Shown here piece after piece: positions 30,356 to 63,674 of a stretch of DNA of 64,000 nucleotides; the first letter of the stretch is position 1, and every line of letters begins with the position of its first letter. Below the pieces are notes generated by a model. It ran no database searches and was not told where the DNA came from. It saw only the letters and a program-made list of their open reading frames with translations. The translations under genes and the position numbers were made by a program. Origin of the DNA: Amycolatopsis alba DSM 44262 (lineage in GTDB: Bacteria > Actinomycetota > Actinomycetes > Mycobacteriales > Pseudonocardiaceae); the NCBI RefSeq assembly GCF_000384215.1, contig NZ_KB913032.1, forward strand, positions 9,747,275 to 9,811,274, given 5' to 3'.

Positions 30356-30357
30356 GG

Positions 30358-47093: not shown

Positions 47094-47136
47094 AAACCCG
47101 AAATGAGTCGTTTGCGCAGGTCAGACCTAGTGGCGC

Positions 47137-47169: not shown

Positions 47170-47386
47170 TCTGGCTGCCGCTTGATCACCGAGCGTTCAC
47201 TAGCTTCCCTGCAATCCGGACGGGCCGCGCGCCGCGCGGGATGGACGCGCGGCGTCTGAGGATGTGGGGGTATCGCTTTCCAGCCTCACAGCGGGTGCAC
47301 CCACAGCGGCCCGTCTGACGCCCGGAGTCAGTCGCAGGCGTGCGTATAGCGCTGGCGTCCGCCCGCCGTTACCGAGGAGTCGTCCC

Positions 47387-48052: not shown

Positions 48053-48424
48053 ATGACGAACACCGGACCCTGGTCCATCGCGTGCCGTGACGTGACCGGC
48101 CGTGAAGGGACGCTGTGTGTTGCCGTGCGCGACTCGGAAGTCGTGGTCGTGGCTCCCCCAGGAGAGAGCTTGATCCTCGACTACGGGGCCGCCGCGAAGT
48201 TCCGCTCTGCCGTTATGAAAGCTGCCGAGGTAGCGGCCACACCCGTGTCGACCACATCTGGCGCTGTCACGACCACGGACACGGCGAGCACGGCGGAGCA
48301 GAACCTCGGTGGGCTTCCCCAACCGCCGTGGGGCCGCTCTGCTCTGTCGCCATGTCGCGGCGGGACCATGACCCCGATATCTGGTCCCGCCGCGATCCCC
48401 GCCTCCAGGGGTGAGGGCGCATGA
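48053..48424 (+). CDS. Hypothetical protein, first gene of the long plus-strand operon
   Basis: 123 aa, ATG with GAGGTGG upstream. The first 65 residues look folded and strand-rich (LCVAVRDSEVVVVAPPGESL). They resemble short actinomycete proteins encoded beside XRE regulators, but I assign no family. The tail is Ser/Pro/Gly-rich. The stop overlaps the next ATG. Confidence 0.6.
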   Translation: MTNTGPWSIACRDVTGREGTLCVAVRDSEVVVVAPPGESLILDYGAAAKFRSAVMKAAEVAATPVSTTSGAVTTTDTASTAEQNLGGLPQPPWGRSALSPCRGGTMTPISGPAAIPASRGEGA

Positions 48425-48633
48425 TCCCCTTGTGCATCACGGCGAGCGCCGCGCTGACGTTCATCTGTTGCATGCTGCGTATGGTGTGGCGGCGACGGCA
48501 GCAAGCCGAGTCCGCCTATGCAGGTTCGCATCGCCGCGCGCCGCGCCAGCCCCCCAACCGAGTCCTGCGGTACGCGATCGCGACCGCCGGGACCCACGGC
48601 CTCGGCTTGATCAGGAAGGCCGAGGGCCCATGA
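48421..48633 (+). CDS. Small membrane peptide
   Basis: 70 aa. One N-terminal hydrophobic helix (IPLCITASAALTFICCMLRM) followed by a basic, Pro/Arg-rich tail. Start and stop both overlap neighbours by ATGA, so it is translationally coupled in the middle of three small genes. Function unknown. Confidence 0.55.
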   Translation: MIPLCITASAALTFICCMLRMVWRRRQQAESAYAGSHRRAPRQPPNRVLRYAIATAGTHGLGLIRKAEGP

Positions 48634-48890
48634 GGCGGCCATGTCACACCGTGCCCGCCGCCGCCTTGCTTCGTCGGCTGGGTTGGCAGCACCGCAGGGT
48701 CGACTGCCGCGACGGCGACGGCCATCGGTCCGCGCTGCACCTACGGCGGCGTACTTCCGCGGACGTCGAGATCGAGCTGCCGGGCGGGCGACTCGCCCGG
48801 TTGACCAACGTCGAGGCCGGGCAGCTCCGTGCGGCACTGCGCGATGTCCTGCTCGCGGATCAACCGTCGCACCGAGCGGGGGCCATCTAG
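48630..48890 (+). CDS. Small hypothetical protein
   Basis: 86 aa. After a basic start it reads ADVEIELPGGRLARLTNVEA and GQLRAALRDVLLADQ, a strand-helix pattern. Likely a small soluble accessory protein. Coupled by ATGA to the membrane peptide upstream. Confidence 0.55.
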   Translation: MRRPCHTVPAAALLRRLGWQHRRVDCRDGDGHRSALHLRRRTSADVEIELPGGRLARLTNVEAGQLRAALRDVLLADQPSHRAGAI

Positions 48891-49038
48891 CCAGACCTCG
48901 CGGGCCAGGTCGGCTTTCCCGTGGTGCCTTATCGGCTGAGCACGTCCGCGACACCGACTGCGGCCGGGCGGGAGTGGTTACTCGACGCCTCCCGTTCGGC
49001 CGCGCCCAACGCCCAACTCTTTCGAGGAGGAACGAATC

Positions 49039-49521
49039 ATGACCGCCGTCATCGACGCCCCACCCGCCCAGCCCGAGCAGCAACCAGGCCAACGGGTGCG
49101 GAATTACCGCGACGTATTCGCGTGGCCAACCACGATCGACAGTGTCTCCGGCGACGTCTACCTCCAGCTCGGTGCCACGGTCGACGCGCTCATCATGCGC
49201 GCCGGGTCCGGCGCGGAGGTCAACAACTTCCTTGCGCGGCACATGTTGCGTGTGCCCATCATCGTGGTTCCAGGCGATCCCAATGACTGGATTTTCCTTA
49301 CCCAGCCGCGCACGACCATGCGCATGTCGTCGTGGGGTGATCTGGTGCGCACGCAGATCGGCTGGAAACGGCGCCGTGACACTGTTCTGCTTCCCGCGTC
49401 GGACAACGTGAAGGAGGGCGTCCGGTGGCTTGAGCGGCCACAACCACACATGACCCTTCCGCCGTGGACCACAGTGGCCGACGCTGCCCGCTGGGCGTCC
49501 TCACCTTGCGGGACGTGGTGA
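49039..49521 (+). CDS. Hypothetical protein preceding QueC
   Basis: 160 aa, ATG with GAGGAGGAAC 6 nt upstream, a strong site. A folded core RNYRDVFAWPTTIDSVSGDV, IIVVPGDPNDWIFLTQP is reminiscent of proteins related to bifunctional primase-polymerase N-domains, but the match is too weak to name. Its stop overlaps the QueC start (TGATG), so it is tied to preQ0 synthesis by coupling. Confidence 0.6.
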   Translation: MTAVIDAPPAQPEQQPGQRVRNYRDVFAWPTTIDSVSGDVYLQLGATVDALIMRAGSGAEVNNFLARHMLRVPIIVVPGDPNDWIFLTQPRTTMRMSSWGDLVRTQIGWKRRRDTVLLPASDNVKEGVRWLERPQPHMTLPPWTTVADAARWASSPCGTW

Positions 49522-50228
49522 TGGTGCCGATCGGCTCGCCTGCTCACCGGCACCCGCGGCACGCCATTGTGATCGCCTCCGGAGGCCTGGACTCCACTGT
49601 GCTGGCGTACTGGCTAGCCCAGCGCGGAGCAGAGCTGACGCTCTTGTCCTTCGATTATGGTCAACGGCACCGGGTCGAACTGGAGCACGCGGCTGAGATC
49701 GCGCGACTGCTTGACTGTCCACACGAGATCGTTGACCTGGCGATGCTTGGCCGGCTGCTGGCTGGTTCCGCGCTGACCGACGCCGACGTGCAGGTGCCTG
49801 ACGGCCACTACACCGACGAGTCGATGCGGGCGACGATCGTCCCGAACCGCAACGCGATCATGCTCGACATCGCGGTCTCGCTGGCCGTTGTCCGCAACGC
49901 CGACGTGGTCGCGTTCGGCGCACACGCCGGTGACCACACCGTCTACCCGGACTGCCGCCCGGAGTTCGTCAAGCGGTACGCCTGGTCTGCCCGCGTCGCC
50001 AACGACGGACTTCTGGACGACGATTTCGAGATTCTCGCCCCGTTTATCACCCAAAGCAAGACCGACATCGTCCGGATCGGCGCGGCATTCCGCGTGCCGT
50101 TCGAGAAAACGTGGTCGTGCTACCGGGGCGGAACGACGCACTGCGGCACGTGCGGGACCTGCACCGAACGCAAGGAGGCGTTCCAGCAGAACGGCATCCC
50201 GGACCCCACCACCTACGGCAGCGCGTGA
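49521..50228 (+). CDS. queC: QueC, 7-cyano-7-deazaguanine (preQ0) synthase
   Basis: 235 aa. Converts 7-carboxy-7-deazaguanine (CDG) to preQ0 with ATP and ammonia in the cytoplasm. PP-loop SGGLDST at residues 20-26. Zinc site with four cysteines, C200, C208, C211 and C214 (CYRGGTTHCGTCGTC). Further matches: LSFDYGQRHRVEL and IVPNRNAIMLDIA. All catalytic features are present. It is separated from queD and queE, which lie 11 kb downstream, with the decoration genes in between. Length is normal for the family. Confidence 0.95.
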   Translation: MVPIGSPAHRHPRHAIVIASGGLDSTVLAYWLAQRGAELTLLSFDYGQRHRVELEHAAEIARLLDCPHEIVDLAMLGRLLAGSALTDADVQVPDGHYTDESMRATIVPNRNAIMLDIAVSLAVVRNADVVAFGAHAGDHTVYPDCRPEFVKRYAWSARVANDGLLDDDFEILAPFITQSKTDIVRIGAAFRVPFEKTWSCYRGGTTHCGTCGTCTERKEAFQQNGIPDPTTYGSA

Positions 50229-50241
50229 GGAGATGACGACG

Positions 50242-51222
50242 ATGGCGGACGCGGAGTTCGGATCACCGGCAGGGCCTGGGCGGGGCCGTCGTTCCCGGCG
50301 CCACAGCTCGCGCGTGTCGGGTAGCGAGCCGGTACAGCGTGGCGAGGGGATCGTTCCTGCCGCCCAAGCACCCAGCACGGTAGCGCACCCGGACGCAACC
50401 GCGCCAGCATCCCCGGCTGCCGGGCCGCAATCGCACTCACTGATGCCGCTGCTGTCCGAGCCGCGTCTGCGCCGCGCGTTACGTCAGTGCGGCAGGCGGG
50501 CCTCCACCCCCGGTGCCGACGGCATGACCTGGGGGCGACTACGCAGCGAGGCCCACGTGATGCTGCCGCAACTGGCCCTCGAGCTCGCCGAGGGCACCTG
50601 GCGGCCCGAACCGGTCCGGGAGGTGCAGCTGCCCACCTATACCGGCAAACAGATGCACACCTTCATCCCCACTGTACGGGACCGTCTGGTGCACCGCGCG
50701 CTGCGCATCGCGTTGGAGCCGGTGCTGGAAGCGAGCGCCTTCCGCGACTGGGTCTCGGGATTCCGCCCACGCCGAAATCGCATCACCGCGTTGCGGCAGG
50801 CCGCCGTGCATCATCAGGCAGGCTTCCGTTGGATCGCCGATCTCGATGTCGCGTCGGTGTCCGAGGGCGCGACGATCGACGAGGTCATCGACTGGCATGC
50901 CGAGCACATCCACGACGGCACTTTCCTGGCCCGCTTGCGTACGGCGCTCGCCGCGATGCCGAGTCCGATCGCGGCGGGCTCAGGTCTGGCGCCCCTGCTG
51001 ATCAACCTTCGTTTGTCCCAAGTGGACACACAACTTCCGCAGCTTCGGGTCGTCCGTTTCGCCGACAACTATGCCGCTTTTGCCCCGACCTGTGAGGAAG
51101 CGCACGGGGCCTTCGACACCATTAGCGACGCGCTCCTGCGGCTTCGGTTACGTCCCAACGAGCGCAAGAGCCGCATCAGGAATGACGCCAATGTCGAAGA
51201 CCTGTTCCTGATCGGCGGCTGA
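50242..51222 (+). CDS. Degenerate reverse-transcriptase-like protein
   Basis: 326 aa from ATG 50242, with GGAG 9 nt upstream (ATG 50233 has no spacing). Residues 1-65 are disordered. The body aligns by eye with group II intron-type RTs: STPGADGMTWGRLR, MHTFIPTVRDRLVHRALRIA, FRDWVSGFRPRRNRITALRQ, RWIADLDVASVSEGA, LAPLLINLRLSQVD and RVVRFADNYAAFAP. Motif A keeps Asp200, but the aromatic gate residue is not evident. Motif C is FADN (273-276) instead of YADD, and the usual PQGG before SPLL is GSGLAP. There is no maturase or endonuclease domain. Polymerase activity is doubtful. It lies between queC and the FGE-fold gene, 13 and 3 nt away. Confidence 0.8.
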   Translation: MADAEFGSPAGPGRGRRSRRHSSRVSGSEPVQRGEGIVPAAQAPSTVAHPDATAPASPAAGPQSHSLMPLLSEPRLRRALRQCGRRASTPGADGMTWGRLRSEAHVMLPQLALELAEGTWRPEPVREVQLPTYTGKQMHTFIPTVRDRLVHRALRIALEPVLEASAFRDWVSGFRPRRNRITALRQAAVHHQAGFRWIADLDVASVSEGATIDEVIDWHAEHIHDGTFLARLRTALAAMPSPIAAGSGLAPLLINLRLSQVDTQLPQLRVVRFADNYAAFAPTCEEAHGAFDTISDALLRLRLRPNERKSRIRNDANVEDLFLIGG

Positions 51223-51225
51223 GAC

Positions 51226-51783
51226 ATGCATCTGGAATGGATCAAGGTCACCGGCGGGATCTGCGCATACGGGGACACCGGGCGCCCGGTCAAGGTCCCG
51301 ACCCTGTTGTGGACGCGTACCCCGCTCGCCTACGGGCACCTGCCGAGCGACCAGGCTGGTCTCGGGGGGCGGTATCCCGTCACCGAGATCAGTCACGCCG
51401 AGGCGATCCAGATCGCCGGTCGCCTGGGCGGCCGGTTGCCGTGCTCGGTGGAGTGGGAGTGGATGGCTGCCGGAGCCGGGCGCCGACGCTGGCCGTGGGG
51501 TGCCGCACCCTGGCAACCGGCGTTCGCGAACCTGCGGGACTCCCTGCACGACACGGTCACCCCGGTCGACACTCATCCCGCCGGAGCCACACCCGAAGGC
51601 ATTCTCGACGTCGCGGGCAACGTCTGGGAATGGACCGCCAGCACCGCGATGAGCGACGGCGTCGTCATCCGAGGCGGCTCCTTCGCCTCGTCGCCGTTGT
51701 ACGCGCAATGCACGTTCCTCAACGCCGCCCCCGGCGAGTTGCGCTCGCGCGGTATCGGCATGCGGGTGGTGCGCGAGCTATGA
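51226..51783 (+). CDS. Short FGE-sulfatase (SUMF1/EgtB-fold) protein
   Basis: 185 aa, shorter than the usual 250-300. Motifs of the C-type-lectin-like FGE fold are plain: GRLPCSVEWEWMAAGAG, RWPWG, LDVAGNVWEWTAS, VVIRGGSFAS and GIGMRVVREL. The N-terminal third of normal FGEs is missing. It could be a non-haem-iron or copper enzyme of the EgtB/PvdO group, or a binding protein using the fold. The start follows the RT stop by 3 nt and the stop overlaps the next ATG. The pairing RT plus FGE-fold protein recalls diversity-generating retroelements. Confidence 0.82.
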   Translation: MHLEWIKVTGGICAYGDTGRPVKVPTLLWTRTPLAYGHLPSDQAGLGGRYPVTEISHAEAIQIAGRLGGRLPCSVEWEWMAAGAGRRRWPWGAAPWQPAFANLRDSLHDTVTPVDTHPAGATPEGILDVAGNVWEWTASTAMSDGVVIRGGSFASSPLYAQCTFLNAAPGELRSRGIGMRVVREL

Positions 51784-52268
51784 CTCTCCAGCCACCCACT
51801 ACTCGTGTCCTCGCACCCAACCATGGACTGATCATCCTCAACTGTTCACGGCGCAAGATCGTCACCGCCGCGCCGGTCGTGGCGCTCGACCTCTACCAGG
51901 GCGGATGCGTCCCTAGCGCGCGAGAACATTTCGCCGCGGATCCCGCTCGCCGAGCTCGGATCCGGATCCTGTCCGGCGCCCACGGCCTGCTGCGACCTGA
52001 GACCCCGATCAGCACCTACGACCACCGGCTCACGACCCGAGCCGAAGCCGCACGCCTGCACAAGCGGACGGTCGCCGCGCAACTGGACGCCGAACTCGCC
52101 GACGCACCATCGCTGCAGCACGTGCTGATCCTGGTCGAGCCTCTGTACCTGCACGCTCTCCAACGCGTGTTCGACCATCCCGCCCTGTTCGGGCAGATCA
52201 CGATCATCCCGGATACGAGGGCATGGCACGACGCACTGCCCCACCTTCGGGACTGGGGGTGGGCGTGA
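51780..52268 (+). CDS. DUF6884-like protein
   Basis: 162 aa. LIILNCSRRKIVTAAPVVAL with LDLYQGGCVPSAREHF, then RIRILSGAHGLLRPETPIST and YDHRLT, follow the pattern of DUF6884/YaaA-related small domains (Cys near the first strand, LS-x-HGLL). Molecular function of these is not established. Overlaps both neighbours (ATGA before, GTGA after). Confidence 0.65.
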   Translation: MTLQPPTTRVLAPNHGLIILNCSRRKIVTAAPVVALDLYQGGCVPSAREHFAADPARRARIRILSGAHGLLRPETPISTYDHRLTTRAEAARLHKRTVAAQLDAELADAPSLQHVLILVEPLYLHALQRVFDHPALFGQITIIPDTRAWHDALPHLRDWGWA

Positions 52269-53299
52269 CCACGCTGGACGAGAAATTACTGCACCGCAAC
52301 AACTTTCACACCAGCAGCACCCGAAGCTGGGAGGCCGTGTCGGGGATCGGCTGGCACGAGCCCACGCCCTCGGGCCTTCCGCTGGCCGCCATACGCACCC
52401 TCTCGGTCGTCATCCCGGCCCACAACGTCGGCTACTGCCTTTCGGCCGTCCTCGACGCCTTGGAAGGCCAGCACCACCGGTACAGGTTCGAGGTCATCGT
52501 CGTCGACGACGCCAGTACCGACACAACAGCCACCATCGCCGCTCAGCATCCGATCGTCACCACCGCCCTGCGGCTCCCTGAACGGGCGGGCGCGGGCACC
52601 GCGCGCAACCTCGGCACCGCGGTCGCCCGCGGGCAAACCGTCGTCTACCTCGACGGTGACATGGTCCTGCCGCCGCACGTGATCACCGACATCGCCGCCC
52701 GCGCGACCGACACCACGGTGCTCGTCGGGTTCCGGCACAACCTCCCCTACGACCTGCACCAGGGCGGACGTGGAGTGCTCGCTGAGCACCCGCACCTCGC
52801 CGCCGACCACCGCGTCGTCTGGCGACCACCGGTCGGCCGCCCCTTGCTCTACACGGGAATCACGCTGGACCAGCGCCTCGAAGGCCGGCCGCTGGATCAC
52901 ACCCGCGATTTCCTCGACCTCGGCTACGGCCAGCGCTATATCGACTGGGACCTCCCCCGCATGGTCGTCACAGCCCTCGTCGCCGTTCCCCGCGCCGCTG
53001 TCCTCGATGTCGGAGGGTTCGATCCCGAATTCGGGCGCATCGGCTGGGGCATGGAAGACACCTACCTCGGCGCGTGCCTGATCGCAGCCGGCCTGTTGAT
53101 CATCCCGCTCCGGCAGGCCGTCGGGTTCCACCTCGATCCACCGGACGCCGGCCAGCAATGGCAGCACAAACTCGCTCGCTGGCCCGCCACCCTCGCCCGC
53201 TACCGGGAACTCATGCGGCGGCCCGCCCTCTACGGCCGCTCCCGGACATTCATGGCCGACATGACCGAGCTACTGCACACCTGCGAGGTACTGCGATGA
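52265..53299 (+). CDS. Family 2 glycosyltransferase
   Basis: 344 aa, GTG start overlapping the previous stop. A 45-residue N-terminal extension precedes the GT-A fold: LSVVIPAHNVGYCLSAVLDA, VIVVDDASTDTT, AGAGTARNLGTAVARGQ and the metal-binding YLDGDMVLPP. Late GWGMEDTYLG is the acceptor-side ED motif of polypeptide-GalNAc-like GT2 enzymes. Donor sugar cannot be read from sequence. It sits in the decoration block between DUF6884 and the radical SAM gene. Confidence 0.85.
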   Translation: MTTLDEKLLHRNNFHTSSTRSWEAVSGIGWHEPTPSGLPLAAIRTLSVVIPAHNVGYCLSAVLDALEGQHHRYRFEVIVVDDASTDTTATIAAQHPIVTTALRLPERAGAGTARNLGTAVARGQTVVYLDGDMVLPPHVITDIAARATDTTVLVGFRHNLPYDLHQGGRGVLAEHPHLAADHRVVWRPPVGRPLLYTGITLDQRLEGRPLDHTRDFLDLGYGQRYIDWDLPRMVVTALVAVPRAAVLDVGGFDPEFGRIGWGMEDTYLGACLIAAGLLIIPLRQAVGFHLDPPDAGQQWQHKLARWPATLARYRELMRRPALYGRSRTFMADMTELLHTCEVLR

Positions 53300-54273
53300 C
53301 CCCGTCACTGCCGACGATGACGACCACGGTGCGAACTTTCGCGGCGCGGCCAGACGGAGCCGAAGGTGTCGTCCACGACCCGCTCACCGGATTGACCCAC
53401 CGCACCAGTCGCGCGCTCGGCTCCGGACGTGTCCGGCTGTCCGCCACCGATCTCGCCTCCTGGCCTGAGGTTCATCCGGCGGCCGTCCAGACGGACGTGC
53501 CGATCAGCGTGTGCTGGTCGCCCGTGGTGCGTTGCAACCTCGCCTGCTCGTACTGCCTAGACGACAAATCCGTGTCTGAGCTGGCCCGGCCCGAGCGCCA
53601 CCGCATCGCGAACCTGATCGCCGAGACCGCGGTTCTGGGTGTGGACATCTCCGGCGGCGAACCATTGCTGCTGCGCGACCTGCCCGACCTGATCGACGTG
53701 CTCGTCGCGGGTGGTTGCGCGGTCAGTGTGACAACCAACGGAACGCACCTCGCCCGCCGCGCCGAAGCCCTGGCCGGCCGCGTGGACGCCGTACGAGTGA
53801 GCCTGGACGGACCTGACGCGGAACGTCACGACCGGTGGCGCGGCGCAGGCAGCTTCGACCACGCCGTCACCGGAATCCGTGCAGCGATCGCCCAAGACAT
53901 CCCCACCCAGATTCAAGCCGTGCTCCTACGCTCCACAGCCCAGGCCAGCATGCGGGCGATGGTCGACCTGGCCGCCACGGTAGGGGCGAGCGGAGTGACC
54001 TTCCTGCAGATGCTTCCCATCGGGGAAGGCGCCGCCCTGGCCGGGACCGAGCAACTGACCGATGACGAGGCTCTCGGTCTCCTCGCCGAACTGAAGACCA
54101 CCGCGGCCGTGCCCGTCCGTCTGCGTACTCGCCAGGCGGCCGGAGGCTTCACAGTGATCCGCTCCGACGGCCAGATCTGGCGCAACCAGCCGGGCGCACA
54201 CGCCATCAGCGCCCTCCGCCCCCTGCACACGGCCAGTGACCTCGCACTGACTGCCTGGGACGGATCGGCATGA
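53296..54273 (+). CDS. Radical SAM enzyme
   Basis: 325 aa from ATG 53296, overlapping the GT2 stop. The cluster motif CNLACSYC places the three iron-sulphur Cys at 80, 84 and 87; GGEP follows in GVDISGGEPLLLRDL. The middle resembles MoaA/PqqE-type enzymes (SVTTNGTHLARRAEAL, VRVSLDGPDAERHDRWRG). No second C-terminal Cys cluster (SPASM) is seen. Substrate unknown; a carbon-skeleton or sugar modification of the deazapurine product is plausible. Confidence 0.87.
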   Translation: MTPSLPTMTTTVRTFAARPDGAEGVVHDPLTGLTHRTSRALGSGRVRLSATDLASWPEVHPAAVQTDVPISVCWSPVVRCNLACSYCLDDKSVSELARPERHRIANLIAETAVLGVDISGGEPLLLRDLPDLIDVLVAGGCAVSVTTNGTHLARRAEALAGRVDAVRVSLDGPDAERHDRWRGAGSFDHAVTGIRAAIAQDIPTQIQAVLLRSTAQASMRAMVDLAATVGASGVTFLQMLPIGEGAALAGTEQLTDDEALGLLAELKTTAAVPVRLRTRQAAGGFTVIRSDGQIWRNQPGAHAISALRPLHTASDLALTAWDGSA

Positions 54274-54845
54274 GCGCCTCTCCGGACACACCTCGAGCCG
54301 GCCCAGCTCGCAAGCACACGCCCTGGAGAGGACAAGACATGAACACACCGACGAGCGAACAGCTCGATCAGTTCGCGCACGCCCTGGGCGACACCCTGCG
54401 GGCTGCGCGGAGAGAACGCGGCTGGACCCGCAAACAGATGCGCGCCGCGATGTGCACCGACGACGACCTCTCCCTGCAAACGCTCGCCAGCTATGAACTC
54501 GGCACACGCCGGATATCCGTCGAGCGGCTGATCGAAGTGTGCGCTGTACTGAAGAGACAGCCGGACGAGCTCCTTCGCCGCGCGACCACCCTCGCGTTCA
54601 GCGGTCACTACGGGACCCGCATCAACATCGACCTCCTCAGCCTCGCACACACCGCCGATCCTCGGCTGCGGCCGCTCCAGCGCTGGGCGCAGGTCCGTGT
54701 CCAGCAATCCACCCCAGAACGGGTCTTGGTCGAAGAGCTCGACGCCACCGCGCTGTCCGCGATGGCCGACATCGCCGGGACCACTGTGTACGACCTCGTA
54801 CACGCATTACGCGGAATCAGTTCAGCCCACCACGTAAGCGCCTAA
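54270..54845 (+). CDS. XRE-family regulator inside the biosynthetic operon
   Basis: 191 aa from ATG 54270 (overlap with previous stop) or 168 aa from ATG 54339, which has GGAGAGG 7 nt upstream and begins at the HTH domain; I find the second more likely. HTH: LRAARRERGWTRKQMRAAMC, LQTLASYELGTRRISVERLI. The C-terminal part (FSGHYGTRINIDLLSLAHTA) is unassigned. Probably controls the operon. Confidence 0.75.
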   Translation: MSASPDTPRAGPARKHTPWRGQDMNTPTSEQLDQFAHALGDTLRAARRERGWTRKQMRAAMCTDDDLSLQTLASYELGTRRISVERLIEVCAVLKRQPDELLRRATTLAFSGHYGTRINIDLLSLAHTADPRLRPLQRWAQVRVQQSTPERVLVEELDATALSAMADIAGTTVYDLVHALRGISSAHHVSA

Positions 54846-54889
54846 CTCGCCAACGCGATTTCCCCGCCCTGTAAGGAATAGGACCGCGC

Positions 54890-55453
54890 ATGACCACCGC
54901 ACGCCGAGACTTCGATCACCGCAAGATCTGGCGCGTGACACCGGAGGCTCTCCACGACGCTGCCACGCTTCTGGCCGACACGATCCTGCGTGATCACTCG
55001 TCGGTCGAGCGCGTCATCGGCATCGCCAACGGCGGTGTCTCACCCGCCCACCTCATCGCCACCACACTTCGGATGAACGCCCGCATGGTCCGCGCCCGCC
55101 ACAACATCGGTGACGACGTCTACCAGCAAGCCACCGGTGACGTGTCCCTCGATCTCACCCCGCTGACCCGTGCCCTCAACGGTCGACGGCTCACAGGCAC
55201 GGTGCTGGTGGTGGACGACATCTGCGGCAGCGGCGCGACCCTTCGGCGCGTCCACGACGACTTCGCCCCTTTGCTCAGCCCCAGCGCCCAGATCCTGACC
55301 GCGGTCCTGTGCCTCAACACCGGAGCGACCACGCTGCCGGACTACTCGATCTGGACTGTCTCGGACTGGGTCGTCTTTCCCTGGGAAACCCCGCCCGCCG
55401 ACCAGGACACCACGCCCTTGCCGCCGCCGAGGAAGGTCCTCCACCATGTCTAG
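54890..55453 (+). CDS. Phosphoribosyltransferase (type I)
   Basis: 187 aa, ATG with GTAAGGAATAGG upstream. PRPP-binding loop VLVVDDICGSGAT at 105-117; an N-terminal VIGIANGGVSPAHL and RMVRARHNIGDDV complete a xanthine/guanine-PRT-like fold. In this setting it could attach preQ0 or a relative to ribose-5-phosphate, a step needed for deazapurine nucleotides; the base specificity is inference. Confidence 0.85.
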   Translation: MTTARRDFDHRKIWRVTPEALHDAATLLADTILRDHSSVERVIGIANGGVSPAHLIATTLRMNARMVRARHNIGDDVYQQATGDVSLDLTPLTRALNGRRLTGTVLVVDDICGSGATLRRVHDDFAPLLSPSAQILTAVLCLNTGATTLPDYSIWTVSDWVVFPWETPPADQDTTPLPPPRKVLHHV

Positions 55454-56567
55454 CGCGCCCCCGCTGACCGTCGCGTTCGTCCTGGCCTCCTACACCCCGA
55501 ACGCGCCGGCCGGGATCGAACGCGCCACCGCCGCCCTCGCGCACGGCCTGCGCCAGCTCGGCCACCGCAGTCTCATCCTGACCGCCGCCCCGATCGACAC
55601 CCCGGACGACACCGTGATGCGGCTGCGCTCGGTGGGCGTCACCTTCCCCTGTGACGACGGTGAACTGCGCGACGCGATCAGCACCCACGGCCAAGACGCG
55701 CTGCTCGCCGCCGAACTGTGCGAGGTCTACCGCAGGCACCGAGTCGACGTCGCCGTCTACACCGACGGTCTATGGGGCCTAGGCAGAGCGGCACCGATCA
55801 GCCGGGCACGCACAGTCCTCGCCATGCACGTCGTCGGCCACGACCAGGACCTCGAGCCCGCCCTGGCTCGCGCCGACCTGGTCATCGCCCCGTCCCAGGT
55901 GGTGCTCGACCAAGCACACGCTCGCGTCTACGACACCGGTGGCTGGCTGGTCGTGCCCAACGCCCTGCTGCACACTGCGCCACTCCCCTCCGACTCGCGA
56001 CGGGAGGCGCTGCGACGACACGGCCCGATCCGCGTCCTGGCCCGGCTCGGAGCAGAGAAGAACGTCCGGGCCTTGCTGGACGCCGGTCGGCTGGTGGACC
56101 GCACGGTCGAGGTGATCGTCGGTGAGGCCGGTTTCGAGGCAGCCATCGGCGACCAGGCGGCCGAACTCGACCAGTGCCGCTATTCGGCCGCGCACCTCGC
56201 CCTCGGGACCGTCCACGGCGGCGGCCTCGGCTGGGACCGGGTGCCGGCCTGGCTCGCGCAGGCGGCCGTGGTGATCGTGCCCTCGCTACGCGAGACCTTC
56301 GGGCTGGTCGCGCTGGAGGCCATGAGTGTCGGGACCCCGGTCGTCGCCTTCGACGTGGGCAACCTGCCCTCGCTGGTCGGCACCGGCGACGGCTCGGGCG
56401 GCGTGATCATCCCCCGATCGTGGGGCGAACACGGTCTCTGGCGCGCCGCCGAACAGCTACTCGCAGATCCAGTACGCTACGCGCACCTATCCAGGGCTGC
56501 GTACTACCGCTCGCGGGACTATCTGCCCACCACAGTCGCCGAGACATTCGTAAAGGCGGTGCGGTGA
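55446..56567 (+). CDS. Family 4 glycosyltransferase
   Basis: 373 aa, overlapping the phosphoribosyltransferase end by 8 nt. GT-B fold: VAFVLASYTPNAPAGIERAT at the N-terminus; RVLARLGAEKNVRALLDAGR and VPSLRETFGLVALEAMSVGT (the E-x7-E donor motif) in the C-domain. Mycothiol MshA is of this class and moves GlcNAc. Linked by TGATG overlap to the exonuclease gene. Confidence 0.87.
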   Translation: MSSAPPLTVAFVLASYTPNAPAGIERATAALAHGLRQLGHRSLILTAAPIDTPDDTVMRLRSVGVTFPCDDGELRDAISTHGQDALLAAELCEVYRRHRVDVAVYTDGLWGLGRAAPISRARTVLAMHVVGHDQDLEPALARADLVIAPSQVVLDQAHARVYDTGGWLVVPNALLHTAPLPSDSRREALRRHGPIRVLARLGAEKNVRALLDAGRLVDRTVEVIVGEAGFEAAIGDQAAELDQCRYSAAHLALGTVHGGGLGWDRVPAWLAQAAVVIVPSLRETFGLVALEAMSVGTPVVAFDVGNLPSLVGTGDGSGGVIIPRSWGEHGLWRAAEQLLADPVRYAHLSRAAYYRSRDYLPTTVAETFVKAVR

Positions 56568-57424
56568 TGCCTGCTGGCGTCCCTTTGCTCCTGATTGACG
56601 GTCACAACTTGCTATGGCGCGCGGCGTTCGGGTTCCCCGCCGCGATCCTCTCCCGCGACAAAACCCGCGATCTCACCGCCGAGTTCGGGTTCTTCGCCCT
56701 GCTCCGCGTCGCGATCCGCGAGGAGATACCGGAACCACCCGAGGTCCTCGTCGTGTTCGACGGCGAGCACGGAGCCGCCGGCCGCAAGGACAGCGACGCC
56801 GGCTACAAAGCCAACCGCGTCATCGACGAGGCCGCCCTCAAACCCTTGCGCGCGATCCCGCACGTCCAGCAGGCCCTGACCGGCTACGGCATCCACTGGA
56901 TCGAAATCGACACCGCCGAGGCCGACGACGTCATCGCCACCCTCGTCGCCGCCACCCGCGAACGCGAACCCGGCCGCCGGGTCTGGATCATGTCCGGCGA
57001 CCGCGACTTCTACCAGCTCGTCGACGAGCACGTCCGCGCGCTCAACACCGTGATGAAACGCGGCCGGCGGCACATCGGCCCCGCCGAGGTCGCCGAACGC
57101 TACAACGTCACTCCCGCGCAATGGCCCGACTTCTGCGCCCTCAAAGGCGACCCCGCGGACAACATCCCCGGCGTGCGCGGGATCGGCGAGGGCACAGCGG
57201 CCACGCTCCTGTCAGGCGGGTTGCACCTCGACCAGCTCCCGGACTCCGGACGACTGACCGGCGCCAGGAAAGCCAAGGTCACCGAGACTTGGGAACAAGT
57301 ACTCGCCTGGCGCGAGCTCATCCGGATGCGCACCGACCTCACACTCCCCTGCCACCCGACCGGTGTTCCCACGCGAGAACTGCCCAAGCCCGCCGACGTC
57401 ATCGAGAAACTCGGGCTCTGGTGA
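56567..57424 (+). CDS. FEN-type 5'-3' exonuclease
   Basis: 285 aa from ATG 56567. PIN/FEN acidic residues are all present: Asp11 in LLIDGHNLLWRA, VVFDGEHGAAGRKDSDAGYK, EIDTAEADDVIATLV and IMSGDRDFYQLV. A helix-3-turn-helix (CALKGDPADNIPGVRGIGEG) binds DNA. Standalone relatives occur beside DNA polymerase genes and in phages; here it is flanked by two tailoring genes, which is unexpected. It could act on modified DNA. Confidence 0.85.
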   Translation: MPAGVPLLLIDGHNLLWRAAFGFPAAILSRDKTRDLTAEFGFFALLRVAIREEIPEPPEVLVVFDGEHGAAGRKDSDAGYKANRVIDEAALKPLRAIPHVQQALTGYGIHWIEIDTAEADDVIATLVAATREREPGRRVWIMSGDRDFYQLVDEHVRALNTVMKRGRRHIGPAEVAERYNVTPAQWPDFCALKGDPADNIPGVRGIGEGTAATLLSGGLHLDQLPDSGRLTGARKAKVTETWEQVLAWRELIRMRTDLTLPCHPTGVPTRELPKPADVIEKLGLW

Positions 57425-58053
57425 GCACCATGCCCTTCGCCGCTCCGGCGTCCGTGCTGACCGTGATGGCCCACCCCGACGACGCCGAACTCTGGGCCGG
57501 CGGAACTCTCGCACGCTGCAGCGCCTCCGGGGCCGCCGTCACCATCGCCGTCCCGCGCCACACCCAACCAGGACGGGACGCCGAAGCCGCTGCGGGCGCG
57601 GCGATCCTCGGGGCCGCGCTCCACGAGTACGACCACCCCACGGCGGCGATGCTGCGCGAACTTCTGCTCGCTATCCGGCCCGAGGTCGTCATCACCCACC
57701 CGCTGCGCGACGTCCACGCCGACCACCGCACGCTCGCCGAAGCCCTCGTAACCGCCCTGCCCGACGTCGTCATCGCCACAGGTCATCCGCGCCGGGTCTA
57801 CACCGCTGACTCCTACAACAGCCTCACTCTCGACGGCGCCATTCCCGCGCACACCATCATCGACATCACCGAGACCTACGAGCAGAAGCGACGTGCCCTC
57901 GCGGCGCACGCCTCCCAGCCGATCACCGGCCATTTCGGGCCGATGGCCGAGACACTCGCACGCCTGTGGGGAAGCCGTATCGGCGTCACCCACGCGGAGA
58001 ACTTCGTGCCGCTGCCGGTACTCGGACGCCTTCCAGCAGCCCCCGCTCTATAA
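57421..58053 (+). CDS. PIG-L/LmbE-type deacetylase
   Basis: 210 aa, GTG 57421 overlapping the previous stop (ATG 57430 possible). Zinc site AHPDDAE (17-23) and a late HPLRDVHADHRTLAEAL; the Asp after HP is the general base. PIG-L enzymes such as MshB remove acetyl from GlcNAc conjugates, which fits the GT4 two genes upstream. Last gene of the plus-strand run, convergent with the flavoprotein. Confidence 0.88.
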   Translation: MSTMPFAAPASVLTVMAHPDDAELWAGGTLARCSASGAAVTIAVPRHTQPGRDAEAAAGAAILGAALHEYDHPTAAMLRELLLAIRPEVVITHPLRDVHADHRTLAEALVTALPDVVIATGHPRRVYTADSYNSLTLDGAIPAHTIIDITETYEQKRRALAAHASQPITGHFGPMAETLARLWGSRIGVTHAENFVPLPVLGRLPAAPAL

Positions 58054-58088
58054 CCAGTCAAGCTGCACCACGTCGCACGCCGGTCGAC

Positions 58089-58637
58089 TCATTTGTCCGT
58101 AGCGGAGGTAACGGCACTGCGCAGGGAGGAGATGAGGTACGACCAGTCGAAGGTGGCCAGGCCGTCCTCGACGCGGGTGGTGATCGTGTCCGGGTCGAGC
58201 AGCGTCACACCGGCCTCCGTGAGCCGGGTGACGCTGTCCGCGTAAGCGGGATGCCGGCGAAGGGCTGGTTTGACGCACGGGGCCGCGACGATGGGGACAT
58301 CGGTGCCGAGCATCTCGTTGAGCACGCCCAGCGCGAACGTGTCACTGATACCTGCCGCCCACCTGTTCACCGAGTTGAAGGTCAGTGGCGCGGCGAGAAC
58401 AGCGTCGGCACGCGGAAGCGACTTCTCCCCCTGACGAGGTGGCCGCGGAAATACCCGCGTCACGCATCCTGTCATCGCAGCCAAAGCGTCGAGGTCAATC
58501 CACGAGGCGGCCGTCGGTGTCGCGATCACGCACACCGTCCAGCCGTCGGCCGACAGCCGGGGAACGAATTCCTTGAGCCGCAACACCGGCGGCGCTGCCG
58601 ACGCCACCAGATAGAGACACTGCCGGGCAGAGGTCAC
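58089..58637 (-). CDS. HFCD-type flavoprotein
   Basis: 182 aa. LYLVASAAPPVLRLKEFVPR, then VIATPTAASWID, APLTFNSVNRWAAGISD and PIVAAPCVKPALRRHP match the flavin-binding homo-oligomeric Cys decarboxylase/phosphopantothenoylcysteine decarboxylase fold, with the PxMN-like motif changed to PCVK. May decarboxylate or reduce a small molecule. Overlaps the stop of the XRE-TPR gene that probably controls it. Confidence 0.8.
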   Translation of the reverse strand: MTSARQCLYLVASAAPPVLRLKEFVPRLSADGWTVCVIATPTAASWIDLDALAAMTGCVTRVFPRPPRQGEKSLPRADAVLAAPLTFNSVNRWAAGISDTFALGVLNEMLGTDVPIVAAPCVKPALRRHPAYADSVTRLTEAGVTLLDPDTITTRVEDGLATFDWSYLISSLRSAVTSATDK

Positions 58638-59877
58638 ACCGCGACCCCTGCCCGCACCGCGAGACCACGCAGAGCCGGTACTTCGATGCGCCGCTCGCGG
58701 GCCAGCAAGTTTTCGATCAGCGATCGCGCGTTCGGGTTGGCTCGAACCAATTCAGGAGCGACACGCTCGGTTTCCAGCAGGTGAATCACTGCCTGGGGGT
58801 CTTCAGTGAGCTGTGTGTGCGCCCACGCGCTGTCCAGGTGGAACTGAGCCTGGCGACCGTTCAGGCCGCCCGGCAATCTAGTGATGTCCAGCTGCTCTGC
58901 TGTCGTGAGCGCCCGATGGGGATCGTTCAGCGTGACAGCCACTGAGGAGCGATGGATCAGCACGTTCGACGGCCCGAACGCGGTCCATCCGATGTTGCCG
59001 TCGACGCCGAGCCGCCGTGCGAGTTCATCAGCGTGGTCGAGCCGTTCGTCCGCTTCGACAGGGTCGGCGCGGCGCGCGGCGATGACAGCGCTGATCAGGG
59101 TCAAGGCGCCACACCATGTCACGCTTTGCGCGTCCTGGTCTCGCAATGCGGCAGCGGCGGAGACGGCTAGCTCCTCGGCCTCCCTGATCCGTTCGGAATC
59201 CACTGCGCTGCTGGTGCGCAGCAGCGCACAGGCTCGTTGGTACGCCGCCGCGGCAAGGCCGAAGATGTCCCCAGCGTCTTCGGCCGCGATGCGCGCTTGC
59301 TCAGCGGCGGCCAGACTCGCCTCTCCATCGCCCTTTTTCGTCGCCAGCTTGGCCGCGACGATCTCCAGGCTGCACTGCAGTCTCAGTGCTTCTCGTCGCT
59401 TCTGCACTGGTCCGTCGATGATCAGGGCGTTGACAGCTTCCCGGACCGATGGCAGTCGCTGGGCGACATCGACATACCGGGCGGCCTGATAGCGCCGGTG
59501 CAGGTCCGCAATCCGCGCTGACAGCCCAGGGGGATCCATCCGACGCTTCGGCTCCACACCGCTCTTGCCAGCACGGTGGGCTGTCTCCCCCTCGCAGAGA
59601 AGGGCGTCATGCACCACGACCTCGCGCCGATTCATTGAGGCCGTCTCGACCAGAGCAGTCGATGAGGGTTGGAGGAGGATCTCAAGTTCGTCGAGAGAGA
59701 CTCGAAGTACCTCAGCAATGCGAGGACGTCTCCAGGGATGCGGCGTCTGTGTTCCGCGCTCCCAGCGCCCGACCGTGGAGAGTTCCGTCTTGAGCTGCTG
59801 GGCGAGGTCTCCTGAGTGAAGCCGAGGGCCTCGCGCCGAGCCGCGAAGGCCTCTCTCTGAGCTCCCATGAACGTCAC
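58634..59877 (-). pseudogene. XRE-TPR regulator gene with a -1 frameshift in the HTH
   Basis: From the start (GTG 59877 or ATG 59868) the sequence reads MGAQREAFAARREALGFTQE, then loses frame. One base back it continues DLAQQLKTELSTVGRWERGT, PHPWRRPRIAEVLRVSLDEL and on into a TPR-type body to 58634. The intact paralogue (45673-47010) has exactly the same spacing between TQE and STVGRWERG, so a single G lost near 59810 explains it. Without the repair no helix-turn-helix is made. The control region is conserved with the paralogue. Confidence 0.8.
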
Positions 59878-60478: not shown

Positions 60479-60739
60479 ATGACATCGGACTTGAAGTTCA
60501 CAAAAGGGAAACAGGTCACCGGCGTCGCAAGATCCCGCATGGGGTCGAAACTGAAGAAAATGTACGAACGTGGTTCCAGCATTCGAGCGTTGGCCGAGCT
60601 GACTGGCCGCTCCTACGGCTTCATTCACCGGCTCCTGCTTGAATCCGGCGTACAGCTGCGTCCGCGCGGCGGCCGCCCTTTCACCCGCTCGCCCAGGCGG
60701 AGCGCTGAGCGTGTGGCTCGCCGGATCGGTGTCAGGTAG
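60479..60739 (+). CDS. Small helix-turn-helix protein
   Basis: 86 aa from ATG 60479 (GGAG upstream). TKGKQVTGVARSRMGSKLKK, then YERGSSIRALAELTGRSYGF and IHRLLLESGVQLRPRGG form a resolvase-like or YlxM-like helix-turn-helix common in actinomycetes. Basic throughout. Immediately followed by the RbpA paralogue (0 nt gap), so the two are co-expressed. Confidence 0.75.
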   Translation: MTSDLKFTKGKQVTGVARSRMGSKLKKMYERGSSIRALAELTGRSYGFIHRLLLESGVQLRPRGGRPFTRSPRRSAERVARRIGVR

Positions 60740-61144
60740 ATGCCACGAACTGTGTTGCGCGGTTACCGCTGGGGTGGTGCGAGTGTGGAGTCCGATCAGG
60801 GTGTTGAGCCCGCGGCTCGATTGACAGCCCGGTTCGCATGTTCACGCGGTCACGTGTTCACCGTGCCTTTCGCGGCGGACGCGGAACCTCCGCCGCACTG
60901 GAGCTGCCGACAGCATGGACTCGAGGACTGCGCGCGGATCCCGGAACTGGCCGACGACTCGACCGGGGACCTTGGGATCAAGCCGCGTCGGACGCACCTG
61001 GACATGCTGCATGAACGGCGCAGCGCAGCCGATTTGGAGACGCTGCTCGCCGAGGCTCTCACAGCGATCCGCCGGCAAGGAGGTCCGCGGCCGGGCTGTG
61101 TCCACGTCGGAGACAGGACGTACTCGTTCAGCTACGACAGCTGA
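60740..61144 (+). CDS. rbpA: RbpA-family RNA polymerase-binding protein (paralogue)
   Basis: 134 aa. Starts PRTVLRGYRWGGASVESDQG, continues FTVPFAADAEPPPHWSCRQH and ends its conserved part with PRRTHLDMLHERRSAADLET, all hallmarks of RbpA, which binds sigma factor and stabilises promoter complexes in actinobacteria. It is longer than housekeeping RbpA by a Gly/Tyr tail. A second copy beside biosynthetic genes suggests dedicated transcription of this region, perhaps with an alternative sigma factor. Confidence 0.88.
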   Translation: MPRTVLRGYRWGGASVESDQGVEPAARLTARFACSRGHVFTVPFAADAEPPPHWSCRQHGLEDCARIPELADDSTGDLGIKPRRTHLDMLHERRSAADLETLLAEALTAIRRQGGPRPGCVHVGDRTYSFSYDS

Positions 61145-61435: not shown

Positions 61436-61999
61436 ATGCACGACACGGAGACACACGAGCAGGTCAGCCCCGGCCAGGAGAAACCCGCGGTGGCCGTGGT
61501 CGCGCCGACGGCCCACCAGATCAGCATCGAGCACACTTTCGAAACCGCCCATCGGCTACCGCAGCTGCCGGGCAAGTGCACCAGCCTGCATGGACATTCC
61601 TGGCGGGTCACGGTATCCGTGTCCGCTCCCGCTCTGAGCAGCGACGGGACAGTCGTGGAGTTCGGCGCGCTCAAGGCCGGAGTCCGGCAATGGATCGACA
61701 CCCACCTTGACCACGGAACCATGCTCGGCATCCGGGATCCGCTCGCGCTGCACCTCTACACCGCGGGATCCAAAGTCTTCCGCTTCGGCGCGGACGGCAG
61801 GGAGAGCGCCAGCGATGAGGAACGACTGGCATCCGACTTGCCCTGGCCGACTGTCGAAGCAGTAGCGGTGCTGCTTCGCCGAGTGAGCCAAGCCGCGCTC
61901 GTCGCGCTGCCCAGCGCCCCCGACGCCTCGATCGGGCGGGTACTCGTTCGTGAAACGCATCTCAACACCGCCACCTACGGGCCGTCGGACGCGCTGTGA
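61436..61999 (+). CDS. queD: QueD, 6-carboxytetrahydropterin synthase
   Basis: 187 aa. Converts 7,8-dihydroneopterin triphosphate to 6-carboxytetrahydropterin, the second step to preQ0. Zinc histidines H39, H52 and H54 and catalytic Cys48 (TAHRLPQLPGKCTSLHGHSW) are present; VRETHLNTATYG supplies the late Glu and His. An N-terminal 25-residue extension is atypical; a start at 61508 is possible. Ends in an overlap with queE (GTGA). No folE-type GTP cyclohydrolase is in the window, so the first step must come from elsewhere. Confidence 0.93.
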   Translation: MHDTETHEQVSPGQEKPAVAVVAPTAHQISIEHTFETAHRLPQLPGKCTSLHGHSWRVTVSVSAPALSSDGTVVEFGALKAGVRQWIDTHLDHGTMLGIRDPLALHLYTAGSKVFRFGADGRESASDEERLASDLPWPTVEAVAVLLRRVSQAALVALPSAPDASIGRVLVRETHLNTATYGPSDAL

Positions 62000-62724
62000 A
62001 GCCACCCACGGTGCCCGCCCCAGACCGCGACCTCGTCGTCAACGAAACCTTCGGCCCCACCTTCCAAGGTGAAGGACCAAGCACTGGCCGGTACGCGCAC
62101 TTCATCCGCCTGTTCGGCTGCCACCTGTCGTGCACGTGGTGCGACACCCCGCACACCCATGACCCAACCCGGTACGACCTCACCGCAGAGCAGCGAATTC
62201 TCTCGATCGACGACATCCTGTCCTGGCTCGCCGCCGCACCGGTCGACCTGCTCGTGATCACGGGCGGCGAACCGATGCTGCAGCCGCGTGTCTTGGAACG
62301 GCTGCTGCTCGCGATCCGGGACCGCTCGCTCGCCACCGATATCGAGATCGAGATCGAGACCTCCGGCACCATCCCGCCCACTGACCTGCTCACCGCGGCG
62401 GCGACACGATTCAACGTTTCACCGAAGCTCGCGCATTCGGGACTGCGCCGGCATCAACGCATTCGCCCAGCGGTGCTGCGCCACCTCGCCGGTACCGGGA
62501 AGGCTGTCTGGAAGTTCGTCGTCCAAGAGATCGACGACTTGGATGAGGTCCAAGAACTGACGGAGGCCTACGACCTGCACCCCGTCTGGATCATGCCGGA
62601 GGGCACCGACAGCTCCACCGTGCTGACACGGATGCGGCTGCTGGCCGAACCCGTGCTGTCACGCCGCTGGCATCTGTCTCCCCGGCTTCACACGCTGTTG
62701 TGGGAGAACGACCGCGGCCGCTGA
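61996..62724 (+). CDS. queE: QueE, 7-carboxy-7-deazaguanine (CDG) synthase
   Basis: 242 aa, GTG start overlapping queD. Radical SAM enzyme: NETFGPTFQGEGPSTGRYAH leads to the cluster motif GCHLSCTWCDTPHTHD (Cys 42, 46, 49), with LVITGGEPMLQP following. It makes CDG, the QueC substrate. C-terminal part (VQEIDDLDEVQELTEAYDLH) is normal. Complete. Confidence 0.95.
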   Translation: MKPPTVPAPDRDLVVNETFGPTFQGEGPSTGRYAHFIRLFGCHLSCTWCDTPHTHDPTRYDLTAEQRILSIDDILSWLAAAPVDLLVITGGEPMLQPRVLERLLLAIRDRSLATDIEIEIETSGTIPPTDLLTAAATRFNVSPKLAHSGLRRHQRIRPAVLRHLAGTGKAVWKFVVQEIDDLDEVQELTEAYDLHPVWIMPEGTDSSTVLTRMRLLAEPVLSRRWHLSPRLHTLLWENDRGR

Positions 62725-62804
62725 CACCCGCAACTCCCCTTGTCAGCAAGCTAACTGAGCACCACCCGGCGGCACCGCCGACAACGCGAAGTCTGAGGAA
62801 TCAC

Positions 62805-63674
62805 ATGGCGCAGCGGCTTGATCTCACGTCGGCACTCTCCAGAGCCCACACCGCGATGGACCTCGCAGTAGACCACGTGCTCAGCCACCGTCCACATCGG
62901 ATTCACTACAAAGGTGACCGCGACCCCGTTTCGGATGTCGATGAGACCGTCGAGCGGCTCGTGCACCAGTGCTTGGCAACCGACGACGCCGGCACAGGTT
63001 TCCTTGGTGAAGAGACAGGCCCGACCGGAGATCGTCACACTTACTGGGTCCTCGATCCCATCGACGGCACGATCAACCACCAGCACGGCAACCCACTCTG
63101 CGCGATCGCACTCGGCCTGGTCCACAGCGGACAACCTGTGCTCGGGGTCATCGCCCTGCCCTTCCTCGGGCACCGGTACTCGGCCGCCGAGGGCGGCGGA
63201 GCCTTTCGCGACGACGAGCCGATCACAACCTCCAGCACCGACAGGCTGAACAAAGCCTTGATCGGCTTCGGCGACTACGGCAGCGGTACCGACGCGGGTC
63301 TGCGTGACGTCCTGTGCGCCTCCCTGGACCGCTCCTTCACCGCACGCGCCCAGGGACTTCGCCGATACGGATCCACCGCACTCGACTTGGTCTGGGTCGC
63401 CGACGGAACCCTCGACGCCTGCGTTCTGCTCGGCAACCGCACCCGGGACACCGCGGCCGGCGCCGTCATCGCCCGTGAGGCCGGAGCTCTCGTTCTCGAC
63501 TCCGACGCCACTCCGCACTCCGTGCGTTCCCGGTGCGCTGTGGCGGTCACTCCAGGACTGTCCGAGGAAGTGATGCCCCTGCTACGCCTCCTGCGGGGGA
63601 GCCCGTTTTGGCCCGGCCGTGACCAGACCGACCCAGATCGTCTCGCCTCCACAACCTCGGCGCCGGACCGTTGA
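62805..63674 (+). CDS. Inositol-monophosphatase-family phosphatase
   Basis: 289 aa from ATG 62805 (TGAGGA upstream). Metal sites FLGEETGPTGD and YWVLDPIDGTINHQHG, and a late DLVWVADGTLDACVLLGNRT, are complete. The family removes phosphate from inositol, sugar or nucleotide-like substrates (SuhB, HisN, CysQ types). Downstream of queE it may dephosphorylate the deazapurine nucleotide or sugar conjugate. The Pro/Arg-rich tail is not conserved-looking. Confidence 0.88.
   Translation: MAQRLDLTSALSRAHTAMDLAVDHVLSHRPHRIHYKGDRDPVSDVDETVERLVHQCLATDDAGTGFLGEETGPTGDRHTYWVLDPIDGTINHQHGNPLCAIALGLVHSGQPVLGVIALPFLGHRYSAAEGGGAFRDDEPITTSSTDRLNKALIGFGDYGSGTDAGLRDVLCASLDRSFTARAQGLRRYGSTALDLVWVADGTLDACVLLGNRTRDTAAGAVIAREAGALVLDSDATPHSVRSRCAVAVTPGLSEEVMPLLRLLRGSPFWPGRDQTDPDRLASTTSAPDR

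Follow-up and report, generated by a model that had tools for sequence, protein, structure and literature searches.

The last 64 kb of the one-contig, 9.81-Mb genome of Amycolatopsis alba DSM 44262 (G000:C1:9747275-9811274; the window, i.e. the whole stretch of 64,000 nucleotides analyzed here) harbors a compact operon, in which a gene for the synthesis of 7-cyano-7-deazaguanine (preQ0) is followed by genes for a reverse transcriptase (RT)-like protein, a protein with the fold of the formylglycine-generating enzyme (FGE), a DUF6884 protein, two glycosyltransferases (GT2 and GT4), a radical SAM protein, a purine-type phosphoribosyltransferase (PRTase), a flap nuclease (FEN) and a PIG-L-like deacetylase. 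The RT-like protein belongs to a family, of which 220 proteins were aligned, that is tied to preQ0 biosynthesis and displays a coherent set of active-site replacements that spares the catalytic aspartates. A first-pass annotation of the DNA had proposed a complete preQ0 pathway within a gene set unlike any named cluster. Pfam searches matched QueC, QueD and QueE and found all genes it had named from QueC through the IMPase on the plus strand (Table 1), while no description of such a cluster was found in the open-access literature, subscription journals being mostly outside this search. Likewise, no known kind of system that combines these genes was found. With a probability of roughly 0.45, we suggest that the operon makes a glycosylated 7-deazaguanine nucleotide as a free compound and that its RT-like protein acts as a nucleotidyltransferase.

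Conservation and spread of the gene set

A pattern scan based on the RT alignment, which detects relatives with two shared conserved peptides, identified 37 loci among 84,980 species genomes. QueC is present in 36 of them, and the exception (L066) starts inside the RT gene. Gene order was counted in 34 loci, with the window and L083 included and with two near-copies of L042 (L043, L050) as well as three contig-edge pieces (L056, L064, L066) excluded. The ten core genes (QueC, RT-like, FGE-fold, DUF6884, GT2, radical SAM, PRTase, GT4, FEN and PIG-L) occur all together, in identical order and on the same strand, in 30 of these 34 loci, a synteny that is far beyond chance. The pair of RT-like and FGE-fold genes, whose co-occurrence with QueC the first-pass annotation had proposed to search for, is conserved along with QueC, and the other neighbors are conserved jointly with them. 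The four deviating loci lack a GT2 match (L040), lack FEN and PIG-L (L046), reach a contig end (L055) or carry a deletion (L061). The latter, from Streptoalloteichus hindustanus (L061:11789-17172), was considered as a natural minimal cluster and rejected as a decaying copy: a single open reading frame (ORF) leads from GT2 (residue 326) straight into FEN (residue 163), hence the intervening genes are deleted, and the QueE match changes frame. QueE lies within reach in 19/34 loci, in 15/34 between QueC and the RT gene; in the other 15/34 no QueE turned up within roughly 10 kb of the RT gene, a distance at which the QueE of the window would also escape.

The genes from QueC to PIG-L are closely packed as in one translationally coupled operon, if their spacing is taken as a guide. 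QueC and RT are separated by 4 nucleotides, RT and FGE by 3, and the three junctions from FGE through DUF6884 and GT2 to the radical SAM gene overlap by 4 each. A gap of 65 nucleotides before the XRE-type gene would become an overlap of 4 with a start at 54270, and 44 nucleotides follow before the PRTase gene. PRTase and GT4 overlap by 8 and GT4 and FEN by 1, and the gap of 5 between FEN and PIG-L would be an overlap of 4 with the GTG start at 57421. QueD and QueE are found 3.4 kb downstream of PIG-L, with two minus-strand genes (58089-59635) in between.

The loci stem from Amycolatopsis, Actinosynnema, Saccharothrix, Spongiactinospora, Thermomonospora, Streptomyces, Nocardiopsis, Micromonospora and other genera, and among named relatives of the RT-like protein that of Amycolatopsis keratiniphila is the closest (97%). 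Among 249 genomes drawn from the order, with 9 (RT) and 8 (GT2) candidates per genome scored and identical handles in both draws, 4 gave RT matches and the same 4 gave GT2 matches (E <= 1e-40), neither being found in the other 245. Some RT match occurred in 28 of 80 congeneric genomes, and 8 of these 80, A. alba included, hold an orthologue of at least 66% identity. Across the phylum (396 genomes, at most 5 candidates per genome scored) 24 genomes gave an RT match at E 1e-25, and all matches except that of A. alba itself (525 bits) score at most 131 bits, which is the strength of group II-type RTs. The system is rare and patchy, and it is kept together. Correlations of protein trees with the RT tree spanned values from 0.49 for FGE up to 0.92 for PIG-L, those for QueE and the radical SAM protein (0.50 each) and for FEN (0.62) included; the low values may reflect truncated ORFs, they also give no support for co-inheritance of FGE, QueE, radical SAM and FEN, and none of the correlations was used as evidence.

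A divergent and rearranged version of the cluster was found on a linear plasmid of Embleya (L085:11983-22214). The order of its genes is different, but QueC, QueD, QueE, DUF6884, PIG-L, FGE, GT4, RT and FEN are all kept, and additional genes encode WbqC, GTP cyclohydrolase I, another GT4 and a protein of the nucleoside 2-deoxyribosyltransferase family. Its RT falls into a second clade, which comprises many proteins from Streptomyces and Actinomadura and is also represented in Nocardiopsis. The presence of RT and FEN in both the operon and the Embleya version argues that both are part of the function.

The active site of the RT-like protein

The RT-like protein of the window has the motif A aspartate D205, the motif C pair D278-N279 and Ser210 at the steric-gate position. 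In the family alignment, D203 is found in 220/220 proteins, D205 in 217/220, and D278 as well as N279 in 218/218, so that motif C reads xxDN in all 218; the gate residue is Ser or Thr in 214/220. The 46 RTs used for comparison, which are presumed to be group II-type and were not classified individually, have Phe at the gate (46/46), Asp279 (39/39 with a letter at that position) and Arg141 (46/46). As judged from the alignment, the steric gate is no longer aromatic and neither the Lys/Arg of the fingers nor the Gln of motif B is retained, while the catalytic aspartates are kept. Alignment and model revealed no thumb or X (maturase) domain; the 329-residue protein stops at the RT7 block. No intron RNA was matched in Rfam at the gathering score in 40000-64000. 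In thumb and maturase domain, gate, fingers and motif C the cluster protein differs from the RTs of group II introns and from group II-like RTs such as GsI-IIC and G2L4. The dN/dS values of the RT gene (0.12-0.24 in 8 comparisons) are within the range of those of QueC and FEN and indicate purifying selection.

Among models for bacterial defense RTs, the best UG/DRT/Abi class model gives at most 24 bits with the window RT and 33 bits with the Embleya RT, whereas the generic RT model gives 127 and 128 bits, respectively. In the main text of a paper on the QueC family (PMC13329287) the term reverse transcriptase is absent, and in the main texts of two RT surveys (PMC4244168, PMC8934634) the term queuosine was not found.

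Companion enzymes and the possible product

The P-loop and the Cys residues of QueC are conserved (at least 97%) in 37 sequences, and apart from the window QueC the genome has no full match to this family, two other matches (27.3 and 23.6 bits) being partial. The PRTase carries the phosphoribosyl pyrophosphate loop DDICGSGxT with D109, D110 and G113 conserved in 35 sequences, and its nearest solved relatives in the PDB are mostly purine PRTases. The DxD motif of GT2 (D130, D132) is invariant in 13 sequences, and the acidic residues of FEN are conserved. GT4 is nearest to MshA/BshA, well below the cut-offs of these NCBIfam models, and the PIG-L protein reaches 64.9 bits with the BshB1 model (cut-off 182.5). 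Hence, the operon resembles mycothiol and bacillithiol synthesis (MshA/BshA, BshB) in its pair of GT4 and PIG-L deacetylase, but differs from it by scores far below the equivalog cut-offs and by its context. Further genes beyond PIG-L encode a DegT aminotransferase in 13 loci (Pfam on two representatives), a GFO/IDH/MocA oxidoreductase in 12 and a methyltransferase-like protein in 9 (Pfam on one representative each). Six loci and the Embleya version hold a gene for GTP cyclohydrolase I within the operon or next to it. This gene stands between QueE and RT in L055 and L067, beyond PIG-L in L059 and L083, and, with weaker similarity, near QueC in L060 and L062.

The FGE-fold protein displays the pattern RGxS-[YFH]-[AN]-[SA]-x-x-LYA in an alignment of 18 sequences, where a true FGE would have its two copper cysteines, whose location and role we take to be those of the canonical motif. 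Because both positions are replaced, a function as an FGE-type copper oxidase was rejected; one other cysteine, C13, is invariant in 18/18. An RT gene adjoining an FGE-fold gene is also a feature of diversity-generating retroelements, as described in excerpts of PMC7159879 and PMC8195603, in which case the RT would mutate the adjacent FGE/C-type-lectin gene. This explanation is contradicted and retains hardly any probability, because 47000-60500 contains no template/variable repeat pair, its sole direct repeat of at least 40 nucleotides being a 66-nucleotide pair of 77% identity upstream of two minus-strand genes, and because the FGE gene, with a C-terminus conserved in 18 sequences and dN/dS of 0.15-0.32, is not hypervariable.

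The radical SAM protein, with Cys80/84/87 conserved in 35 sequences, is nearest to MoaA and cytosylglucuronate decarboxylase in NCBIfam and PDB. It scores 90 bits with MoaA, 71 bits with prokaryotic viperins and 48 bits with the NCBIfam viperin model (cut-off 180), and an identity as viperin was rejected since these scores stay below that of MoaA. The similarity to prokaryotic viperins would nevertheless suit an anti-phage defense operon with a deazaguanine nucleotide or polymer as effector, akin in spirit to DRT and viperin systems, and so would the mobile, patchy spread (8 of 80 congeners, and at that strength A. alba alone among the 396 phylum genomes). We regard such a role as improbable, because the RT fits the DRT/UG models far less than the generic one, the radical SAM protein is closer to MoaA, and no sensor or toxic effector was recognized.

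DUF6884 is described as a domain of DpdC in an excerpt of PMC11888242, and the profile of the cluster proteins matched the DpdC of a dpd locus in which DpdB is encoded as well (hhalign probability 91.7, E 7.6e-7). The correspondence is one of domains only, and the PADLOC DpdC model was reached at no better than E 0.0044. The earlier statement that hallmark genes of DNA 7-deazaguanine systems are missing thus holds for DpdA and fails, at the level of the domain, for DpdC. Judged from this similarity, the DUF6884 protein is probably a preQ0-nitrile-modifying enzyme. The absence of TGT, DpdA and QueF, first noticed for the window, was extended to genome-wide searches: the TGT family (tRNA-TGT or DpdA, PF01702) was found in 0/20 operon carriers (19 genomes and one plasmid record, completeness being stated for 8) compared to 14/14 controls, and QueF in none of 8 carrier genomes compared to 8/14 controls. 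Among the ten core proteins, PADLOC models for DpdA, DpdB and DpdD-K, including the restriction genes dpdD-K, gave no match at E 0.01. Hence, the operon shares the preQ0 precursor, a DpdC-domain protein and horizontal mobility with dpd genomic islands, but differs from them by the lack of a DpdA/TGT-family gene in the searched carriers and by its RT, FEN, glycosyltransferases and PRTase. Its carriers also differ from organisms with queuosine tRNA modification, because bTGT and QueF were not found.

The clustering of QueC, QueD and QueE in the window corresponds to preQ0-derived metabolite clusters, and the huimycin and toyocamycin clusters of actinomycetes are alike in this respect and in sugar attachment. 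It might be supposed that the operon is an ordinary cluster for a deazapurine nucleoside antibiotic of this logic, with RT and FEN as self-protection or regulatory passengers, which would agree with the actinomycete hosts and the tailoring genes. However, RT and FEN are core members, constrained like QueC and kept in the divergent Embleya variant, and we consider a cluster with mere passengers unlikely. The minimal huimycin set of seven genes (huiA-huiG) is without the RT, FEN, FGE-fold, DUF6884 and PIG-L genes of the operon.

The dedicated preQ0 pathway together with the purine-type PRTase, the DpdC-like enzyme and the sugar enzymes rather suggests a glycosylated 7-deazaguanine nucleoside or nucleotide. 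Such a deazapurine product, as deduced from the protein families, fits the purine-type PRTase, the two glycosyltransferases and the deacetylase. For the individual steps, we infer substrates and products as follows. The mobile, dedicated operon would make preQ0 via QueD, QueE and QueC, for which the chemistry is established, and the PRTase would join preQ0 to a sugar-phosphate. The DpdC-like DUF6884 protein might then alter the 7-nitrile, probably to the amide, and GT2, GT4 and PIG-L could add an amino-sugar decoration, assisted in some loci by the DegT, GFO/IDH/MocA and methyltransferase-like proteins. The radical SAM and FGE-fold proteins may contribute further tailoring steps. The RT-like protein would be a domesticated group II-type RT that was rebuilt as a metal-dependent nucleotidyltransferase. 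Since gate, fingers Lys/Arg and motif-B Gln are lost and the aspartates are kept, its most likely activity is the transfer of ribo- or modified nucleotides, with the deazaguanine nucleotide perhaps among them, onto the 3'-OH of an acceptor. FEN might then trim or recycle the phosphodiester product.

Several points weigh against this free-nucleotide scheme. We know of no precedent for an RT-fold enzyme that makes a small molecule, and FEN and RT together would fit polynucleotide work at least as well. No exporter or resistance gene was recognized among the core proteins. DUF6884 is a broad family that also occurs in phages, hence its nitrile chemistry is not assured. Three of 120 first-clade RT-like proteins are without D205 in the alignment, and the RT of Embleya, from a second clade that was seen in genomic context only in this one case, carries Ala as gate residue and retains Arg141. 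In the Embleya variant, matches to PRTase, GT2 and the cluster-type radical SAM gene are all missing, which, together with the differences at gate and Arg141, indicates that not every pathway step is fixed.

Based on the same sequence features, it is also tenable, though at less than even odds, that the RT-family transferase and the flap nuclease install or link 7-deazaguanine nucleotides, either by polymerase-route modification or by templated or untemplated nucleotidyl transfer, before nitrile alteration and glycosylation. The stricter version is a DNA or RNA hypermodification, in which the RT-like polymerase and FEN would bring in a preQ0 nucleotide through excision followed by resynthesis (nick translation) rather than through transglycosylation by DpdA, and the DpdC-like enzyme and the glycosyltransferases would finish the base within the polymer. 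DpdC acts on preQ0 in DNA, and the link of DUF6884 to DpdC speaks for this version, as do the combination of polymerase and 5' nuclease known from Pol I, the absence of TGT/DpdA from every searched carrier, the nature of the operon as cargo of a mobile island, and the nucleoside 2-deoxyribosyltransferase-family gene of the Embleya variant. However, the gate and fingers replacements are unlike a DNA polymerase, the thumb is lacking, no restriction partner was recognized among the ten scanned proteins, and the DegT, MocA and methyltransferase-like genes resemble metabolite biosynthesis, which makes the excision route rather unlikely.

Genomic surroundings and significance

Table 1. Genes of the preQ0 operon and its surroundings in the window; identities are from Pfam profile matches, with bit scores where given.
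Gene product	Position	Strand	Match and remarks
Conserved protein, function not assigned	49039..49521	+	no Pfam match; 17 sequences incl. window; stop codon overlaps QueC start
QueC, preQ0 synthase	49521..50228	+	PF06508, 220 bits
RT-like protein, fingers and palm only, 329 aa	50233..51222	+	RVT_1, 38.8 bits
FGE/C-type-lectin-fold protein	51226..51783	+	PF03781 FGE-sulfatase, 65 bits
DUF6884, YaaA/DpdC-fold protein	51780..52268	+	PF21818, 39 bits
Glycosyltransferase family 2 (GT2)	52265..53299	+	PF00535, 77 bits
Radical SAM protein, CxxxCxxC, MoaA/BlsE-like	53296..54273	+	PF04055, 65 bits; NCBIfam; PDB
XRE-type regulator	54339..54845	+	HTH_3, 37 bits; in-frame ATG also at 54270
Purine-type PRTase	54890..55453	+	PF00156 Pribosyltran, 51 bits
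Glycosyltransferase family 4 (GT4), MshA/BshA-like	55446..56567	+	PF13692/PF00534, 76 bits
PolA-type 5'-3' exonuclease/flap nuclease (FEN)	56567..57424	+	PF02739, PF01367; 120 bits
PIG-L/BshB-like de-N-acetylase	57430..58053	+	PF02585, 45 bits; GTG start at 57421 also possible
Flavoprotein	58089..58637	-	PF02441; 7 sequences incl. window; part of Pseudonocardiales loci; membership uncertain
Protein upstream of flavoprotein gene	58634..59635	-	no Pfam match; membership uncertain
QueD, 6-carboxytetrahydropterin synthase	61436..61999	+	PF01242 PTPS, 82 bits
QueE, 7-carboxy-7-deazaguanine synthase	61996..62724	+	PF04055/PF13353 radical SAM, 47 bits
IMPase-family protein	62700..63674	+	Inositol_P, 163 bits; overlaps QueE end

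The borders of the conserved block are narrower than initially drawn. An ORF around 48053, where the first-pass annotation had begun the block (read as 48029-48421), does have relatives in 12 loci including the window, but the widely conserved part starts at QueC. The IMPase gene does follow QueE as annotated; beyond the window, it was seen beside QueE only in one close relative (G076) among the loci L031-L090, the majority of which stop short of its position, and it was rejected as a cluster member. The presence of an XRE gene in front of the PRTase gene is restricted to the closest relatives, with 8 sequences in all if the window is counted.

The protein upstream of the flavoprotein gene and the XRE-type gene product at 45673-47010 form one similarity group. 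The two copies of the 66-nucleotide direct repeat (47028-47093 and 59897-59962) flank the operon and are situated just upstream of these two minus-strand genes, where they perhaps represent a shared promoter or operator. Just upstream of QueD and QueE, the window codes at 60464-61144 for an HTH_58 protein directly followed by an RbpA-type RNA polymerase-binding protein. An HTH-NB-ARC-TPR protein, a STAND-type regulator, is encoded upstream of the cluster on the minus strand (39112-41412).

Regarding mobility, the loci of two Amycolatopsis species and Prauserella flavalba (L042, L043, L050) are 99.99% identical across 20.9 kb, and the 51-kb contig holding L043 matches a one-contig genome with 99.998% over 42.1 kb and 99.989% over 9.0 kb. 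We read these near-identical segments as copies of an island that has recently spread by horizontal transfer; assembly contamination remains conceivable, though one copy resides in a one-contig genome. They also offer a natural system to locate the ends of the element. Upstream of the operon, the window contains Tad-type secretion genes and a BTAD regulator (24146-33789; T2SSE 32425-33789, TadE 29903-30355, BTAD 24146-26995), on which the translated matches to the shared 51-kb contig fall, and this region is possibly part of a conjugative element. Phage records contain only distant RTs, and one relative in IMG/VR (L083) carries the whole operon.

Known bacterial reverse transcriptases serve retroelements, CRISPR adaptation or phage defense. 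If the proposed function is true, the present family would to our knowledge provide the first reverse-transcriptase fold in a base-modification or metabolite pathway. The operon represents a ready gene set for expression, and it hints at a nucleotide chemistry that is still to be found. If the RT-like protein acts on modified nucleotides, this would open a new route for deazapurines into nucleic acids or nucleotide metabolites and would give preQ0 a purpose in actinomycetes in which no TGT is found.

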